From Verrucomicrobiota bacterium (lineage in GTDB: Bacteria > Verrucomicrobiota > Verrucomicrobiia > Opitutales > Puniceicoccaceae), in the NCBI GenBank assembly GCA_038744685.1, contig JBCDMB010000004.1, positions 62,001 through 126,000 of the forward strand: a stretch of DNA of 64,000 nucleotides, given 5' to 3'. Each line of letters opens with the position of its first letter. Within the stretch, counting starts at the first letter, position 1. The position numbers and the translations under genes are program-made. The notes below the pieces were generated by a model. The model did not search any database. It was not told the origin of the DNA and saw only the letters and a program-made list of their open reading frames with translations. Below, in pieces: positions 57,200 to 63,927 of the stretch.

Positions 57200-58369
57200 T
57201 TAGGGAGAAACCGTAACCAGAAGCCTACCGATCCAGGCGATTCCCACGGAAAAAAGTGCGGCGAAGAAAGCTTGTCGTCCTACCATGCGGATCGCGAATT
57301 TAGGGGTCATTTCCTTTGCGACCGTCACCACTGTTACGAGGCACGGTAAAAGAACGCCGGCGAGGTAGACCGCGGTGAGAATTTGCACGGAAGAATCCAA
57401 GGGAACTTTTAGCGAGTTCCAGTCTGCATCGAGAAGCCCAATCGCCAGACCATCTTTACGTACTGATCCGAGAACTACGGCAACCGCTGCCTGGGGCGGA
57501 AGGTTAAACAGTGCCATTACGGGGGCCAACAGTCGAGTGAACCACTCAAGGACGCCCGACCACTGCAGTAGACCGGCTGCGACACAGATTCCGATGAAAA
57601 TCGGTAGAGCTACAAAAGTAAAATCGCGAAAACACTGAATCGACTCGCCCGTCACGATTTTCCATTCCGGCCAGCGCAGCGGGCCGGACACTAGCGTGTG
57701 CGAGTTGCCGACTGCTTTCCGGACGACCGATGGTGTAGTAATGCGGAGATACACCAAGGTCGTAATGGCAAGGACAGCTAGATAGACTGGACCCATCCAG
57801 AGGTATCCCGAGGCCGCAAAAACGGCAAGGGTTGCAGGGAGCTGGTAGGAACAGGCAGATCCAAACGAGATCGCAGAGACGCAGGTGCCTCTCGAACAGC
57901 TCGAACAGGATCGGGTGGCGACTACTGCTGGGACATTGCAGCCAAAGCCCATGACGACCCGAACGAGATCATGCCCACTAAGCCCAAATGGTTGAAGCCA
58001 CCGCTGTAGAGCGAACGATAGTCGGTTGATCAGACCGGAGGATTTGTAGCACTCGATTAAAACGGTGAATATGATGATCGTTGGAAGGGCGTAAAGCACG
58101 AGGAAGGGCATCATTGCAACCACTCCGTAGTCGCCGGCAAGAACCGCTGCGATCGGTCCAGGAGCCGCGTTTAGCCAGACCAACAACGGCGAAACGGACG
58201 CTTCCACAACTCCATAGAAGCGGTCGGCGAGTGCATTTGCCTGCATGACCGCGAACCAGGCAGGTCCGAATAACAAGACGATACTGATCGGAGCAAACCC
58301 GAGGGCTCGTTCAAGCCAATGATTCCGTTGTGGGGTCTGGCGTGATTCTGTGCCAGACTCCGAGTTCAT
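57200..58369 (-). CDS. FeoB-like Gate-domain permease without GTPase domain
   Basis: This 389-residue polytopic membrane protein has two Gate (nucleoside-recognition) halves. The first has GFGCNVPAVVATRSCSSC (141-158), matching the FeoB pore motif GxGCxxPxxxATR, but with an unusual Cys-rich loop and SACSYQLPATLAVF where FeoB has SCSARLPVY. The second half ends SVRKDGLAIGLL, as in FeoB. The N-terminal G-domain of FeoB is completely absent. Iron or other metal transport is possible, as is a nucleoside role. The ATG overlaps the upstream flavoprotein stop by four bases. Confidence 0.75.
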   Translation of the reverse strand: MNSESGTESRQTPQRNHWLERALGFAPISIVLLFGPAWFAVMQANALADRFYGVVEASVSPLLVWLNAAPGPIAAVLAGDYGVVAMMPFLVLYALPTIIIFTVLIECYKSSGLINRLSFALQRWLQPFGLSGHDLVRVVMGFGCNVPAVVATRSCSSCSRGTCVSAISFGSACSYQLPATLAVFAASGYLWMGPVYLAVLAITTLVYLRITTPSVVRKAVGNSHTLVSGPLRWPEWKIVTGESIQCFRDFTFVALPIFIGICVAAGLLQWSGVLEWFTRLLAPVMALFNLPPQAAVAVVLGSVRKDGLAIGLLDADWNSLKVPLDSSVQILTAVYLAGVLLPCLVTVVTVAKEMTPKFAIRMVGRQAFFAALFSVGIAWIGRLLVTVSP

Positions 58370-59511
58370 GCATGGGACTCGACTGGTTTGGCTTCCGATT
58401 CAACCGCGCATTCGCAGTTTGTGCAGCATTCCAAATCGTCGACGAGAAAACCCCTCTTTTCATCGTCTGTCAGATCCGGCTCCGGGTAACCGAGTCGTCG
58501 GGCGATTGATCGGGCAACCACACCGAAACGAGCCCGGTATTTATAGATGAAGCAAAATTTCGAGTTCTTTTGGATCAATGAGGGGCCCGTGTAATAGAGA
58601 CCGGGATGCAGGGTGGATTCGTCTTCTTCTGTAAATAAAGGAGTTGAACCCTCCCATCCAAACAAATGCTTGATGGGAGTCAGGGCGGAATGAAATCCCA
58701 CTGCGGCGATCGGACGGTGTTTTGAATCAAAGACTTCGCCGTCTGTGGTTTCTACTACGTAGCGTCCGGAAAGGAGGGTTACGGAAGCCACCTCAGAATC
58801 CCCGCGAAGGATCATTTGGCCAGGATGCGCTTTCAGAGTCCTTACCAGGCGATCGCGTGTGTAGGGGCTTAAGACTTCGCTGGGGTCAGGGTCATCGACC
58901 TGCCATGGTTTCCCGCTTGAGAGGAGAATGACTTTTTTACCGAGCTCGACCAAATTGAAGGCCGCATCGATACCGCTTTCGTAACCCCCAATGATGAGAG
59001 CGGTTCCTCCCTGAAAATCTTCCCAGTTGCGGAATACACTGGAGTGCGCACAGTGCTCGGCACCTGGAAAGTCGGCGACTTTCGGATGTGAAAACTCACC
59101 CCCAGCCCAGACGACAACCTTCCCCCGATAAGTCCTGTTCTCGGTCTGGACGGCGAACGTTTCCTCCCCGGGCGTCAATCGAGAGACTTTTTCACCCTCT
59201 TGAACGTTCAGGTCGAAATGGCTGACAACCGCCGAGAGGTAGTTAGCATATTCTTCACCGCTCAAATGCTCTTTTTGAAAGTAGTCTGCGGGGCTTGTAT
59301 CAGGCGTAATCGAGTTCAAATCCGTCTGGAAAAACGGATTCCCGTGAAAGGAAGGAGTGATCAGCCGCATCTGCTCGGGCCAACGGCGAAAAGACGCACC
59401 GACCTCGTCCGCCTCGAGAACCAGGACTTGATCGACGCCGGCTCGCTGGAGAGCCAAGCCGCAGCCGACTCCTGCAGGTCCCGCACCGACAATAATCACC
59501 TCGAAATCCAT
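58366..59511 (-). CDS. Flavoprotein disulfide reductase-like with Cys-rich tail
   Basis: This 381-residue FAD/NAD(P)-binding protein resembles YpdA-type thioredoxin-reductase-like enzymes. FAD loop: VIIVGAGPAGVGCGLALQRA. NAD(P) loop: ALIIGGYESGIDAAFNLV. A later AAVGFHSALTPIKHLF closes the fold. The usual CxxC redox pair of thioredoxin reductase is not present. The C-terminus instead carries four Cys within seven residues (ECCTNCECA, Cys 362, 363, 366 and 368). It is translationally coupled to the FeoB-like permease gene, which suggests electron delivery to, or sensing by, the transporter. This partnership is an inference. Confidence 0.75.
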   Translation of the reverse strand: MDFEVIIVGAGPAGVGCGLALQRAGVDQVLVLEADEVGASFRRWPEQMRLITPSFHGNPFFQTDLNSITPDTSPADYFQKEHLSGEEYANYLSAVVSHFDLNVQEGEKVSRLTPGEETFAVQTENRTYRGKVVVWAGGEFSHPKVADFPGAEHCAHSSVFRNWEDFQGGTALIIGGYESGIDAAFNLVELGKKVILLSSGKPWQVDDPDPSEVLSPYTRDRLVRTLKAHPGQMILRGDSEVASVTLLSGRYVVETTDGEVFDSKHRPIAAVGFHSALTPIKHLFGWEGSTPLFTEEDESTLHPGLYYTGPSLIQKNSKFCFIYKYRARFGVVARSIARRLGYPEPDLTDDEKRGFLVDDLECCTNCECAVESEAKPVESHA

Positions 59512-59520
59512 GACTAACAG

Positions 59521-59537
59521 ATGAAAGTCACTATCAT
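59521..59537. promoter_or_regulatory. Palindromic operator-like site
   Basis: ATGAAAGTCACTATCAT is a 17-bp near-perfect palindrome: arms ATGAAAGT and ACTATCAT match 7 of 8 pairs around a central C. It ends 10 bases before the flavoprotein start codon on the reverse strand. The spacing fits an operator of a dimeric metal- or redox-responsive repressor, and the sequence is loosely similar to Fur/DtxR-type boxes. The regulator is not in the window. Confidence 0.45.
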
Positions 59538-59850: not shown

Positions 59851-62800
59851 ATGAGTGGAGGAAGCTCACCGGAGGAGATCGGATTCTTGGTCGGACAGTT
59901 GGTTTGGCCTACAGTAGCGCTGTTTATTATTGGGTTTCAATTGTACCGATTTCGAGAGTCGGGAAGGAGCAAATTTGCGTCCTTGGGCTTGGTTTTTTGG
60001 GCAGGGGCTCTCCTAATTTTAAGCTGCATATCGATTTTTGAACGGTGGGTTTCCGGAAATGAACTTAGCATCGTTGCGATTCTCACCGGCTTCATTGCAA
60101 TCATTTTGGTCATTGGGAGCTGGGTGACAACTGGGATTGGCTATTTTGAAACGCTTCGAGCGGAGAATCGCCGGCGAGGCCTCAACCTTGCGGTCTGGTC
60201 TACGATTCTAAACCTAGGCGTTTTTGTGGTTATCGGGCTTGTGATTGTATCCCGATCTGGTGGGGTCGATTCTGGAAGGGGTGATCGTGCTTTTGGCCAG
60301 GCTTTTTATGCTGAAGTTCCCGACCTCAACTTTGCTGTGGAAATCGAGGAGCCGGGATGGATTAAGATTCCCCATGAGAAAGTGAATCCCGCACTTTCTT
60401 TGTTTGTGAGAAATAATCGCAAGCAGACCGGACTCATGGTAATCGCCGAACCGCTGGGAATGGAAATGGACGATCTGTCGATTTTCGAGGCTATGATCGA
60501 AGGAGGTGCAAAGGGTGCCATGCAAAACGTAAAGTTCTCTGATTTCAGCGACGAAGTAGTTGCAGGACGTGCAGTTCGGCAAGCTAAAGCATCTGCCATG
60601 CTTGGAATCAAGAAGATCGAGTACGTCTACCACCTTTTCTTTGAGAATGGGGTTCTTTACCAGGTAATTGTCGCTTCTGAGGGTCCGGAAGGCATTGAAG
60701 AGGGGAGTGCCGAGGTCGACGAATTGGTGGGCAGTTTTCGTATTTTGAATGACCGTTTTATTCCCGGGCTCGATGATGGTGATCTGGTCAGTTCGGTCGA
60801 AGTTCCAGCTTATGGAATTTCAATCCCTCTAAACGAGTTAGGATGGATTGGTGGAGCTGACTTTCTAGAAGATTCCCCGCATTGGGTTGGTGGTGCGGGG
60901 AATTTAGCCGGAAGTGTTTTAGGAGTAATGGCGATCCGCGATCTTCTCGAAAACGAGTCTCTAGAGGTAATCGCCTTTTCATTCTTTCATGCCATGGATT
61001 GGGATCTTGATACTCTCGACCACGAGCTGATTCGGGATGTTCGATTAGGGGAACTTCCAGCGCTCAAGTATCGTTTTTTAAGCGAAATTGACGGCTCGAT
61101 TTATCAGTGCGAGTTGGTTGTAGCAAGGTCGGGAAGTTCTGGGATCGGCGTGATCGGAAGTTGGCTGGAATCAGAGAATGGCACGAGTGTCATCAAGGCT
61201 CTCGAGAGCGTTGTAGTCGATTTGGATATCCTTGAATTGGGTTCTGAGAGAGGTGCTTTGTCTGAAGACGTGGAGGCAGACATGCTAAACGCAGCAGGAT
61301 TGGCGCACTACAACAACTCTCGATATGGAAAGGCAATGGTCTACTTTAAGTTGGCTTACGAGAAAGATCCAGAGATGCGGGTTGCGCTCCACAACGTCGC
61401 TCAGGCAGCGACTTACATGGGCGAACACGATGCTGCGATCGACTTTATCGAATCCCGAATTGACGCAGAAAAAGACTCTTTGGAGGTCCGCATTGCTTTT
61501 GTGCAGTTGCTTGCAAATGATAGCCGCTGGGATGATGCAGTATCACTTGCTCTACCCATTTATAGTGAGGGTTACGTAAACGATGACCTTCTCCTTACTT
61601 TGATCAATGGTCTGATAGAAATGGACGATTATGATCACGCAATTGAATTGAGTAAGGCAGCTGCCGAAGCGACGCCGGGTCTAAAACGGGAGACTTGGGT
61701 GGTTTCGGTTCTACGGTTATCTGGAGATCTGGAGTCAGCTGAGCTGTTGTTGAATGAACTGATGGAGAAGAACGGTCCAGATGCCCTGGTTTTGGAAGAA
61801 CAGGCGAATTTGTTGATTGCTCGAGGCGAGTTCGAGAATGCACTCGATTTGATCGACTTGTGGGTTGAAGAGCACGGTGAGTCTTATGATGCTTACGACG
61901 TAAAGATTACGGCACAAGTCGAGTTGAATTGGCTCGGGGATGCAAAGCAGACCGTATCCCTTGCTCTCGAAGCATTTCCAGGAGATGAGAATTTTCTAGA
62001 GTCGCAGCGCTGGCTTCTTGCGCAGGTTGGAGAGGATGATCTGAACTTAATCAATGATCCGATCGAACCGGTTGAGTTACTTCCACAAGTTGCTGAACTC
62101 ATGAAACTTGCAGTTAACCGGGAAGGTCGAGATCAATGGGATCAGGCAGATGCGGTCTACGATTACCGGGTAACCTCGTTTGCCTTCAACTTTGGGCAGC
62201 CATTACGTCGAACCGACCGATCCAGAGTGACCCTTCAGCAAAGGTCTGCGATGGAAGATTTCTCAACCCTGGAGTTCGAGTTCGATCGTTCTTACGAGAC
62301 CTTTTACGTGAACTACATCCGCGTTCTTGACGCAGACGGGGAAATGGTTTGGGAGCATAAGCGCGACTCTTTCTATGTCTCAGAGAATTCGGATGAGACT
62401 CTCGCTACCGATAGCGTTTCGGTGTATGCACCAGTTGGTTCGTTATCGGTCGGGTCAGTGTTGGAATGGGAAGCGACCTGGGAGTCGGACGAAAGTAGTT
62501 TCCCTTTCAGAGAGATCCTCTTTGCTTCTGGAAAACCAAGGAAAGAGCGGATTGTTTCTGTTTCAGGTGATATCGAACAGGTTTCGTTTGAATCTACCGC
62601 TGTTGATTCGATTGAGATGAAATCCAAGGAATCTCTCGCATGGCACCTATCGGATGCGGATGGATTTATATGGGAGAACGGGATGCCGGAACTCTCCAGT
62701 TTTATTCCGACGTTGCGTCTCTCCGCCGCTGGGGAAACCTGGGAATCACTCGTGAATGATTATTACGCAAAGATCGTGGACAAGCTCCTTCCCGATGAGA

Positions 62801-63927
62801 AAATCCAGCAGTTGGCTGTTTCGGAAGGTTTGTCGGGCGAGACGCCTATCGAAACCGTGAAGAGAGTGGTCGGAATGGCTCAGGATCGGGTAGTTTACAA
62901 GGCACTCGAGTTTGGAAGTCGCGGAATTATCCCAATGGACGCTCGAACAACTTGGGAGAATAGTTATGGAGACTGTAAGGATCAGACCGTTTTGTTGATT
63001 CAGATGTTAGAAGGTGCCGGTATTGAGGCGTTTCCTTTTCTCATCTCGACTGATAGCGCCTTCGTTTCGGAAATGCCATCTCTGGATCAATTCAATCACA
63101 TGATCCTCTATATTCCTGCACTCGGCGAACAGCCCTTCGTCGACGTGGTGGACACTCATTTTGACACAGGCTACGGACCACCCGCCGGTCTCGGCGGCCG
63201 TTTTGGAGTGCGGATTGATCCAGATGGAGGAGAGATTTTGAGGGTTCCGGATTACCCCCATTCGATCGAAGAACCAGTCGCTCTGGTCGAGGTAACTGTG
63301 GAAAAGCATGAAGAGTCCCCGGACACGCTCGTTTTTTCCGAAAAGCTCTCCCTTAATGGGTACTATGCGATTTGGACAAGGCGGGAGTTCATCGATTTGG
63401 GGCCCGATCACTATGAGTGGGAAGTCAAAGATCTGGTTAGCCGTTATCTTCCTGACGAAGCGACAATAAAGACAGGGAACATTTCAAATCTAAATGATCT
63501 ATCGAAGCCTTTTGAACTTTCGATTGATTATGAGATGCCGTTATCGGAGTCGGAGAACTTGGACTTCCGTCCTGCGTGGGAGCAGTATTACTTTGATCAC
63601 GAGCCATCATCCCGCAGGACAAAACCCTATGAGATCTACTATCCTTTTTCCCTCAGATCCTCTGTTTTAGTACAGGATCCGAATCTCGAACTTGGATTTG
63701 CTGAAAGTCTTGAATCCCGCAGATCACTCAACTCGGAGGTAGTCGAGCTTCAGTTTGAGACTGCCACCGAAGAAACCGAGTTGGCTCAGTCAGGTGCTTT
63801 TGGAAAGAACTCCTTCAGCCTTGGGTGGCCGTCGTTGGTCCTGTCTTCTGATCAATACCAGCGGTTCTACGACGACATTGATGCTGCAGAAAAGCTTGGT
63901 GTGCGGTCAATCCACTGGAAAAAATAG
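59851..63927 (+). CDS. Membrane-anchored TPR, DUF3857 and transglutaminase-like protein
   Basis: This 1358-residue protein has four N-terminal transmembrane helices (about 10-145) and then two alpha-beta segments (about 165-460). TPR-like helical repeats follow (about 475-735; YNNSRYGKAMVYFKLAYEKD, HDAAIDFIESRID). A DUF3857-type beta domain (about 770-940) precedes a transglutaminase core with NSYGDCKDQTVLLIQML. The nucleophile Cys is residue 1042, and FNHMILY and FVDVVDTHFDTGYG supply the following His and Asp region. The remaining 250 residues are beta-rich. Related Bacteroidota and Verrucomicrobia proteins have no settled function. The catalytic triad seems to be retained. Confidence 0.8.
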   Translation: MSGGSSPEEIGFLVGQLVWPTVALFIIGFQLYRFRESGRSKFASLGLVFWAGALLILSCISIFERWVSGNELSIVAILTGFIAIILVIGSWVTTGIGYFETLRAENRRRGLNLAVWSTILNLGVFVVIGLVIVSRSGGVDSGRGDRAFGQAFYAEVPDLNFAVEIEEPGWIKIPHEKVNPALSLFVRNNRKQTGLMVIAEPLGMEMDDLSIFEAMIEGGAKGAMQNVKFSDFSDEVVAGRAVRQAKASAMLGIKKIEYVYHLFFENGVLYQVIVASEGPEGIEEGSAEVDELVGSFRILNDRFIPGLDDGDLVSSVEVPAYGISIPLNELGWIGGADFLEDSPHWVGGAGNLAGSVLGVMAIRDLLENESLEVIAFSFFHAMDWDLDTLDHELIRDVRLGELPALKYRFLSEIDGSIYQCELVVARSGSSGIGVIGSWLESENGTSVIKALESVVVDLDILELGSERGALSEDVEADMLNAAGLAHYNNSRYGKAMVYFKLAYEKDPEMRVALHNVAQAATYMGEHDAAIDFIESRIDAEKDSLEVRIAFVQLLANDSRWDDAVSLALPIYSEGYVNDDLLLTLINGLIEMDDYDHAIELSKAAAEATPGLKRETWVVSVLRLSGDLESAELLLNELMEKNGPDALVLEEQANLLIARGEFENALDLIDLWVEEHGESYDAYDVKITAQVELNWLGDAKQTVSLALEAFPGDENFLESQRWLLAQVGEDDLNLINDPIEPVELLPQVAELMKLAVNREGRDQWDQADAVYDYRVTSFAFNFGQPLRRTDRSRVTLQQRSAMEDFSTLEFEFDRSYETFYVNYIRVLDADGEMVWEHKRDSFYVSENSDETLATDSVSVYAPVGSLSVGSVLEWEATWESDESSFPFREILFASGKPRKERIVSVSGDIEQVSFESTAVDSIEMKSKESLAWHLSDADGFIWENGMPELSSFIPTLRLSAAGETWESLVNDYYAKIVDKLLPDEKIQQLAVSEGLSGETPIETVKRVVGMAQDRVVYKALEFGSRGIIPMDARTTWENSYGDCKDQTVLLIQMLEGAGIEAFPFLISTDSAFVSEMPSLDQFNHMILYIPALGEQPFVDVVDTHFDTGYGPPAGLGGRFGVRIDPDGGEILRVPDYPHSIEEPVALVEVTVEKHEESPDTLVFSEKLSLNGYYAIWTRREFIDLGPDHYEWEVKDLVSRYLPDEATIKTGNISNLNDLSKPFELSIDYEMPLSESENLDFRPAWEQYYFDHEPSSRRTKPYEIYYPFSLRSSVLVQDPNLELGFAESLESRRSLNSEVVELQFETATEETELAQSGAFGKNSFSLGWPSLVLSSDQYQRFYDDIDAAEKLGVRSIHWKK

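Follow-up and report, generated by a model that had tools for sequence, protein, structure and literature searches.

A FeoB-like permease and a Cys-tailed flavoprotein as a probable zinc-limitation module of bacteria and archaea

Two coupled genes of a Verrucomicrobiota bacterium, coding for a FeoB-like permease and a flavoprotein with a Cys-rich tail, probably form a zinc-limitation module, in which a Zur-controlled, thiol-lined zinc importer is served by a partner NAD(P)H flavoprotein. The pair recurs among zinc-starvation genes across bacteria and archaea and is therefore probably an undescribed zinc-uptake system. Its tie to zinc limitation is well supported, and we infer zinc as the substrate, import as the direction, a reductase role for the flavoprotein and a hand-off of the metal.

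The gene pair and its proteins

The genes lie on the minus strand of the window (the whole stretch of 64,000 nucleotides that was analysed) and are listed with the other features in Table 1. The open reading frames, ATGA overlap, Gate halves, missing G domain, motifs and Cys tail described in a sequence-only reading of this DNA were all confirmed with the ORF list and Pfam. The ATGA coupling of flavoprotein and permease was retained in three related species. The features of the pair are not due to chance, because 36 columns of the permease alignment do not vary among 44 homologues and the tail Cys residues of the flavoprotein are conserved. An assembly artefact or a pseudogene as the origin of the G-less permease was rejected, since G-less forms with coupled starts occur in several genomes. 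Divergent from the pair, positions 59851-63927 encode a 1358-aa protein (TPR, DUF3857 and transglutaminase-like) with no apparent link to metals.

Table 1. Coordinates of the features (window positions unless a contig or locus is given)
Feature	Position	Strand	Remarks
Permease gene	57200..58369	minus	FeoB-like Gate-Gate protein, 389 aa, without G domain; ORF and two Pfam Gate matches
Flavoprotein gene	58366..59511	minus	FAD/NAD(P)-binding, 381 aa; Pyr_redox_3
ATGA overlap, 4 bases, flavoprotein stop/permease start	58366..58369	minus	Translational coupling
Pore-loop block GFGCNVPAVVATRSCSSCSRGTCVSAISFGSACSYQ, permease residues 141-176	57842..57949	minus	C144, C155, C158 and C173 invariant
RKDG signature of the second half, permease residues 304-307	57449..57460	minus	Invariant
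PCLVT loop of the second half, with C343	57332..57346	minus	Cys invariant
CCxxCxC tail, flavoprotein residues 362-368 (within the end ECCTNCECA)	58408..58428	minus	Invariant in 12 aligned sequences; also in 3d1c
Candidate Zur-type 7-1-7 box TGATAGTGACTTTCA (plus strand TGAAAGTCACTATCA)	59522..59536	.	10 bases before the flavoprotein ATG; sequence match
Fur-family gene, probable Zur of the window genome	G000:C24:34678-35028		Its box is TGCAAATGACTTGCA (C24:35157-35171); not linked to the pair
Gene of about 208 aa	L057:2630-3262, L053:5626-6252, L051:5153-5836, L091:8802-9428, L089:3095-3712, L068:7635-8279		

Two Gate (PF07670) stretches were found in the permease with Pfam (9e-24), and neither FeoB_N (PF02421) nor FeoB_C (PF07664) was matched in it. 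The feoB model TIGR00437 covers only its membrane part (1.7e-27, 96 bits), and the window permease and the relatives tested score 96-123 bits against a cut-off of 315.65. The protein carries the motifs GFGCNVPAVVATR and SCSSCSRGTC, and C144, C155, C158, C173 and C343 are among its invariant columns. The CxxC of the pore loop is absent from all 41 canonical FeoBs, yet present in every homologue of the window permease compared; the PC[ILV]AT Cys of the second half occurs in most canonical FeoBs too. In place of the FeoB filter signature SR..T....P..SCSARLP the window permease has CxxC...FGSACSYQ. An AlphaFold model of the permease alone (pLDDT 90.6, pTM 0.88) has its helix breaks at the Cys-bearing loops. 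In structural comparison the model came closest to CNT nucleoside transporters, with a probability of 1.0 although E was 2e-3 and TM was <0.5; a PDB sequence search returned no relative of the permease.

FeoA was not found in the window genome (control genomes were positive), nor was a second Gate protein. The permease might be a FeoB variant that carries ferrous iron, as the sole FeoB-like protein of this genome; its standing as the only Gate protein there and the fit of its Gate halves to the FeoB model would agree with this. The lack of FeoA, FeoB_N, FeoB_C and the FeoB filter, together with the zinc-regulon neighbours and Zur boxes of its relatives, makes such a function highly improbable.

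The flavoprotein matches Pyr_redox_3 of Pfam along its full length (6e-97) and has the dinucleotide-binding motifs GAGPAG and GGYESG and the motif FCFIYKYRARF, which includes the conserved C320. Its tail Cys residues, invariant in the aligned set, were also present in 28 of another 29 homologues. The nearest solved relative is PDB 3d1c (2e-72 over residues 4-368), which shares the CC...CxC tail and which we take to be a putative flavin-containing monooxygenase of S. aureus. A flavoprotein match in Enterococcus carried no annotation. YpdA is a distant relative (TIGR04018, 2.4e-27, 95.6 bits against a cut-off of 339.9; NCBIfam), and similarity to 7a76 extends over the full length (8e-15, PDB search). 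The sequence-only reading had described a YpdA-like fold lacking the CxxC pair. The distant kinship stood, and no CxxC redox pair of the thioredoxin reductase type was present in the body of the protein by sequence and alignment, but YpdA itself runs its catalysis via Cys14 (GGGPC14G) and not via such a pair (PMC6591457). In the alignment the Cys14 position is Ala13 (GAGPAG) of the flavoprotein, and it is therefore Cys14 whose absence is telling.

Distribution, neighbours and Zur-type boxes

Relatives of the permease were searched in plasmids, in the class, in the order and in 84,980 species genomes; in the last set 39 loci were found at E <= 1e-43, followed by a gap, with canonical FeoB starting at E >= 1e-19. 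The members belong to Verrucomicrobiota, Planctomycetota, Cyanobacteria, Chloroflexota, Bacillota, Enterobacterales, Pseudoalteromonas, Desulfobacterales, haloarchaea and Nitrosopumilus. The check for conserved synteny proposed with the sequence-only reading was run, and flavoprotein and permease genes stood together in 59 of 63 permease-homologue loci (a non-independent set with near copies among it) across Bacteria and Archaea, the flavoprotein gene being directly upstream on the same strand in about 54. Not one of the 41 canonical FeoB loci contained the flavoprotein. Present annotations name the genes of the pair 'nucleoside recognition domain-containing protein', 'ferrous iron transporter B' and 'NAD(P)/FAD-dependent oxidoreductase', so that the link between them stays hidden.

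Some loci have features of their own. At the haloarchaeal loci L039-L040 and L061-L062 a gene for an S14-like ribosomal protein lies between flavoprotein and permease, and a DUF7124 protein follows the permease. The permease of L083 (a Leptolyngbyaceae MAG) is broken by an apparent frameshift, and L085 contains a long overlapping open frame. In Verrucomicrobiota and Chloroflexota a conserved gene of about 208 aa (motif MYYWGRDVLHPxGNLL.EHGF), matched by no Pfam family, adjoins the two genes or lies between them (Table 1) and is possibly a third component of the module.

Zinc-limitation genes were present within about 10 kb in 46 of the 63 pair loci and in 1 of the 41 control FeoB loci, which are mostly Bacteroidota and not taxon-matched. 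On the same comparison a COG0523 neighbour occurred in 38/63 against 0/41 loci (p=7e-12), HisI in 16 against 0, CysS in 13 against 0 and Fur in 14 against 0. The neighbours are ZigA/COG0523 GTPases, Fur-family regulators and paralogues of HisI, CysS, DksA, FolE2 and S14. On plasmids of Klebsiella and Pantoea the pair is accompanied by folE2, dksA, COG0523, a Fur-family repressor, cysS or queD, ZigA and hisI; in Acaryochloris by ZigA and four Fur-type regulators; in Paenibacillus by COG0523, S14 and L33; and in haloarchaea by COG0523, S14 and hisI. The GTPase adjoining the pair in the relative L155 scored 599 bits on the ZigA model (cut-off 600). In the Klebsiella plasmids (about 500 records; L043) the pair lies inside a Zur-type zinc-limitation island.

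The genes found beside the pair are the ones that Haas et al. (2009; PMC2770081) list as zinc-sparing. The Klebsiella pLVPK cluster is marked there as Zur-regulated, and FeoB, the permease and the flavoprotein go unmentioned in the main text. A review of Zur (PMC6103462) does not include a FeoB-like transporter type, and no description of FeoB-like zinc genes was found in the literature searched, of which subscription papers were not part.

In the window no zinc gene adjoins the pair. Elsewhere the genome contains a COG0523 gene and two ZnuA-type binding proteins, and owing to the latter another zinc route may exist; no clear Zur-type box was seen at the COG0523 gene or at the two ZnuA genes.

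The pair could belong to the zinc-limitation response and yet import a substitute metal (Co2+, Fe2+ or Mn2+) for zinc-independent or metal-promiscuous paralogues. The permease descends from an iron transporter (TIGR00437), the neighbours FolE2 and HisI are isozyme replacements, and in starved Cupriavidus cobalt can stand in for some of the zinc and FolE_IB2 requires Fe, Mn or Co (PMC11340326). We regard this as unlikely, since the Cys pair that takes the place of the FeoB filter residues fits Zn2+ better than Mn2+ or Fe2+, and FeoA is absent from the window genome. Zinc is the likeliest metal, and it had not been put forward in the sequence-only reading.

Zur-type boxes in the pair loci were counted as matches within 2 mismatches of the clade-typical 7-1-7 consensus. 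For Gammaproteobacteria, Bacilli and Cyanobacteria the sequences that we take to be the Zur-box consensus were used, and that for Verrucomicrobiota was derived in the present analysis. The matches numbered 14 against 0.45 expected in Gammaproteobacteria (TGTTATANTATAACA), 18 against 0.20 in Bacilli (TCGTAATNATTACGA), 26 against 1.15 in Cyanobacteria (TGATAATNATTATCA) and 16 against 0.70 in Verrucomicrobiota (TGAAAGTNACTTTCA), and many of them stand before the flavoprotein gene. A perfect TGAAAGTNACTTTCA is found at the flavoprotein start of the near relatives L054, L155 and L157; the window box TGATAGTGACTTTCA has one mismatch to it.

The family pattern TGMWARTNAYTWKCA was found at 2 places in the whole 3.64-Mb window genome (control, 0), one in the promoter of the flavoprotein and one in that of a Fur-family gene on contig 24. 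The pattern had been relaxed to some extent so as to accommodate both sites, and chance alone would give about 0.9 places, so the weight of the sites lies in their location. At five related loci Fur genes adjoin the pair; their products are 48-56% identical to the Fur protein of contig 24 and far less similar to the remaining four Fur proteins encoded in the window genome. On the NCBIfam models the contig 24 protein is nearer to Fur than to Zur, with all scores below cut-off. It is probably the Zur of this genome, an assignment made solely by orthology to the pair-linked Fur genes, and the promoter of the pair is a candidate member of its regulon.

G-domain loss and a proposed mechanism

Most members of the permease family are 545-590 aa long and have a divergent G domain fused at the N terminus (P-loop GxESxGKS, DTPG; PF01926/PF02421; PDB matches to NFeoB and Der). 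A tree was built on 59 membrane domains of the family, 53 of which come from proteins with the fused domain. The G-less permeases, which are the window protein and those of L046, L047, L057, L160 and L162 (protein starts checked), fall at three places in the tree, all within Verrucomicrobiota and nested among G-bearing proteins. Well-supported branches require at least three changes in G-domain state and parsimony gives four. This is most simply read as secondary loss of the G domain, at least three times within Verrucomicrobiota.

The search for a separate GTPase suggested by the sequence-only reading was also carried out. In a profile search with eight G domains the lost domain was encoded nowhere else in the window genome or in four other G-less genomes (positive controls, three genomes at 1e-84 to 1e-91). 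Weak matches in the G-less genomes are short stretches inside larger open frames, presumably of GTPases of the ribosomal or tRNA kind, for instance Der and MnmE. ZigA/COG0523 adjoins many permeases with or without a G domain, but is absent in the window; as a candidate to compensate for the loss ZigA was rejected, being adjacent in the G-less L046, L047, L160 and L162 and equally in the G-bearing L155-L161. The ORF of about 208 aa between flavoprotein and permease at L057 was likewise rejected as a substitute, since it also adjoins G-bearing permeases and has no Pfam match.

In the sequence-only reading the pair was a redox-gated metal or thiol-metal importer in which the flavoprotein took over from GTP-dependent control once the G domain was lost. 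The translational coupling of the two genes, the Cys-richness of both proteins and the absence of a G domain elsewhere in the window genome speak for it. The flavoprotein, however, is equally constant with G-bearing permeases, which are by far the more numerous, enclose the G-less proteins in the tree and nearly all have the flavoprotein as well. It accompanies both kinds alike and is therefore not a GTP-control substitute, which leaves the proposal very unlikely; redox input may operate in all members, yet not as a replacement. What endures of it is a real two-gene module, syntenic in both domains, metal-linked and thiol-rich, whereas the loss of the G domain had been misread as its defining feature.

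The G-less permease might instead be a decaying remnant and the pair have no transport role in the window bacterium. The end branches of the G-less proteins are longer (0.40-0.68 against about 0.1-0.33 in near G-bearing kin), and the pair is patchy across the order, with 15 of 373 genomes containing it and two congeners lacking it. Against decay, the ORF is intact, all invariant columns and pore residues are kept in the six G-less permeases, the ATGA coupling persists in three related species, the model is confident and the box is retained; there is hardly any likelihood that the pair is such a remnant.

For a zinc-limitation module the following course is proposed. When zinc drops, Zur would leave the box before the flavoprotein gene and both genes would be translated in coupled fashion. 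The permease, judged from knowledge of its family, would be a FeoB-superfamily Gate transporter working by a CNT-like elevator mechanism, its filter loops bearing a Cys set in place of that of FeoB, and Zn2+ would enter along a thiolate-lined path of Cys144, Cys155, Cys158, Cys173 and Cys343. At the cytosolic side the flavoprotein would draw electrons from NAD(P)H via FAD and keep both the pore and its own CCxxCxC tail in the reduced state while their Cys ligands are empty. Thiolates with no metal bound oxidise easily in zinc starvation, and a co-operonic NAD(P)H flavoprotein could therefore protect them. The tail might then bind incoming zinc and hand it to an acceptor, for instance the metallochaperone ZigA, which is the least certain step. 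In most species the N-terminal G domain would add GTP-linked control; in the window bacterium and several relatives, where it is gone, the permease may be ungated or otherwise controlled. A bolder version, in which FeoB-fold zinc importers of both domains have zinc passage controlled by NAD(P)H electron flow through the Cys-tailed flavoprotein, with GTP control optional and repeatedly lost, is speculative and on balance doubtful.

Comparison with known systems

Zinc uptake in prokaryotes is commonly ascribed to ZnuABC-type ABC transporters and ZIP proteins, and a zinc-limitation transporter of the FeoB superfamily would, if real, be a further class. It would reach from haloarchaea, Nitrosopumilus, cyanobacteria, Chloroflexi, Planctomycetes, Verrucomicrobiota and Bacilli to Enterobacterales, with about 500 Klebsiella plasmid records. 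The natural G-less permeases offer a clean test of the old question of whether the G domain of FeoB serves transport or control only, and the constant flavoprotein partner points to possible redox chemistry in the handling of a redox-inert metal.

FeoB and the permease family have in common the two Gate halves, GxGC(N)VPA..(A/S)TR, the Cys-x-(A/V)-T loop of the second half and, in most permease relatives, an N-terminal G domain. The family differs from FeoB in having no GDI or FeoB_C match and no FeoA, in a G domain that is divergent and in the window absent, in CxxCxR...FGSACSYQ where the FeoB filter reads ...SR..TM...PFMSCSARLP, and in the RKDG of the second half and the zinc-regulon context.

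With the bacillithiol disulfide reductase YpdA/Bdr the flavoprotein shares a fold like that of low-Mr thioredoxin reductase and similarity over the full length; unlike it, the flavoprotein lacks Cys14, has the CCxxCxC tail and FCFIYKxRxRF, and occurs in organisms not known to us as bacillithiol makers. 3d1c belongs to the same family over its whole length, common tail included. ArsO and CzcO are further flavoproteins of Pyr_redox_3 type, and their genes neighbour those for metal transport. The ArsO model matched the window flavoprotein at 5e-19, but with 69 bits against a cut-off of 425, and both ArsO and CzcO are tied to resistance or efflux rather than to Zur regulons. The ZnuABC, ZupT and COG0523/ZigA systems share their regulon logic and neighbours with the pair. 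The fold is ordinary and the system is not: it is, apparently, a widespread and undescribed transporter module of zinc limitation, some members of which are naturally G-less.
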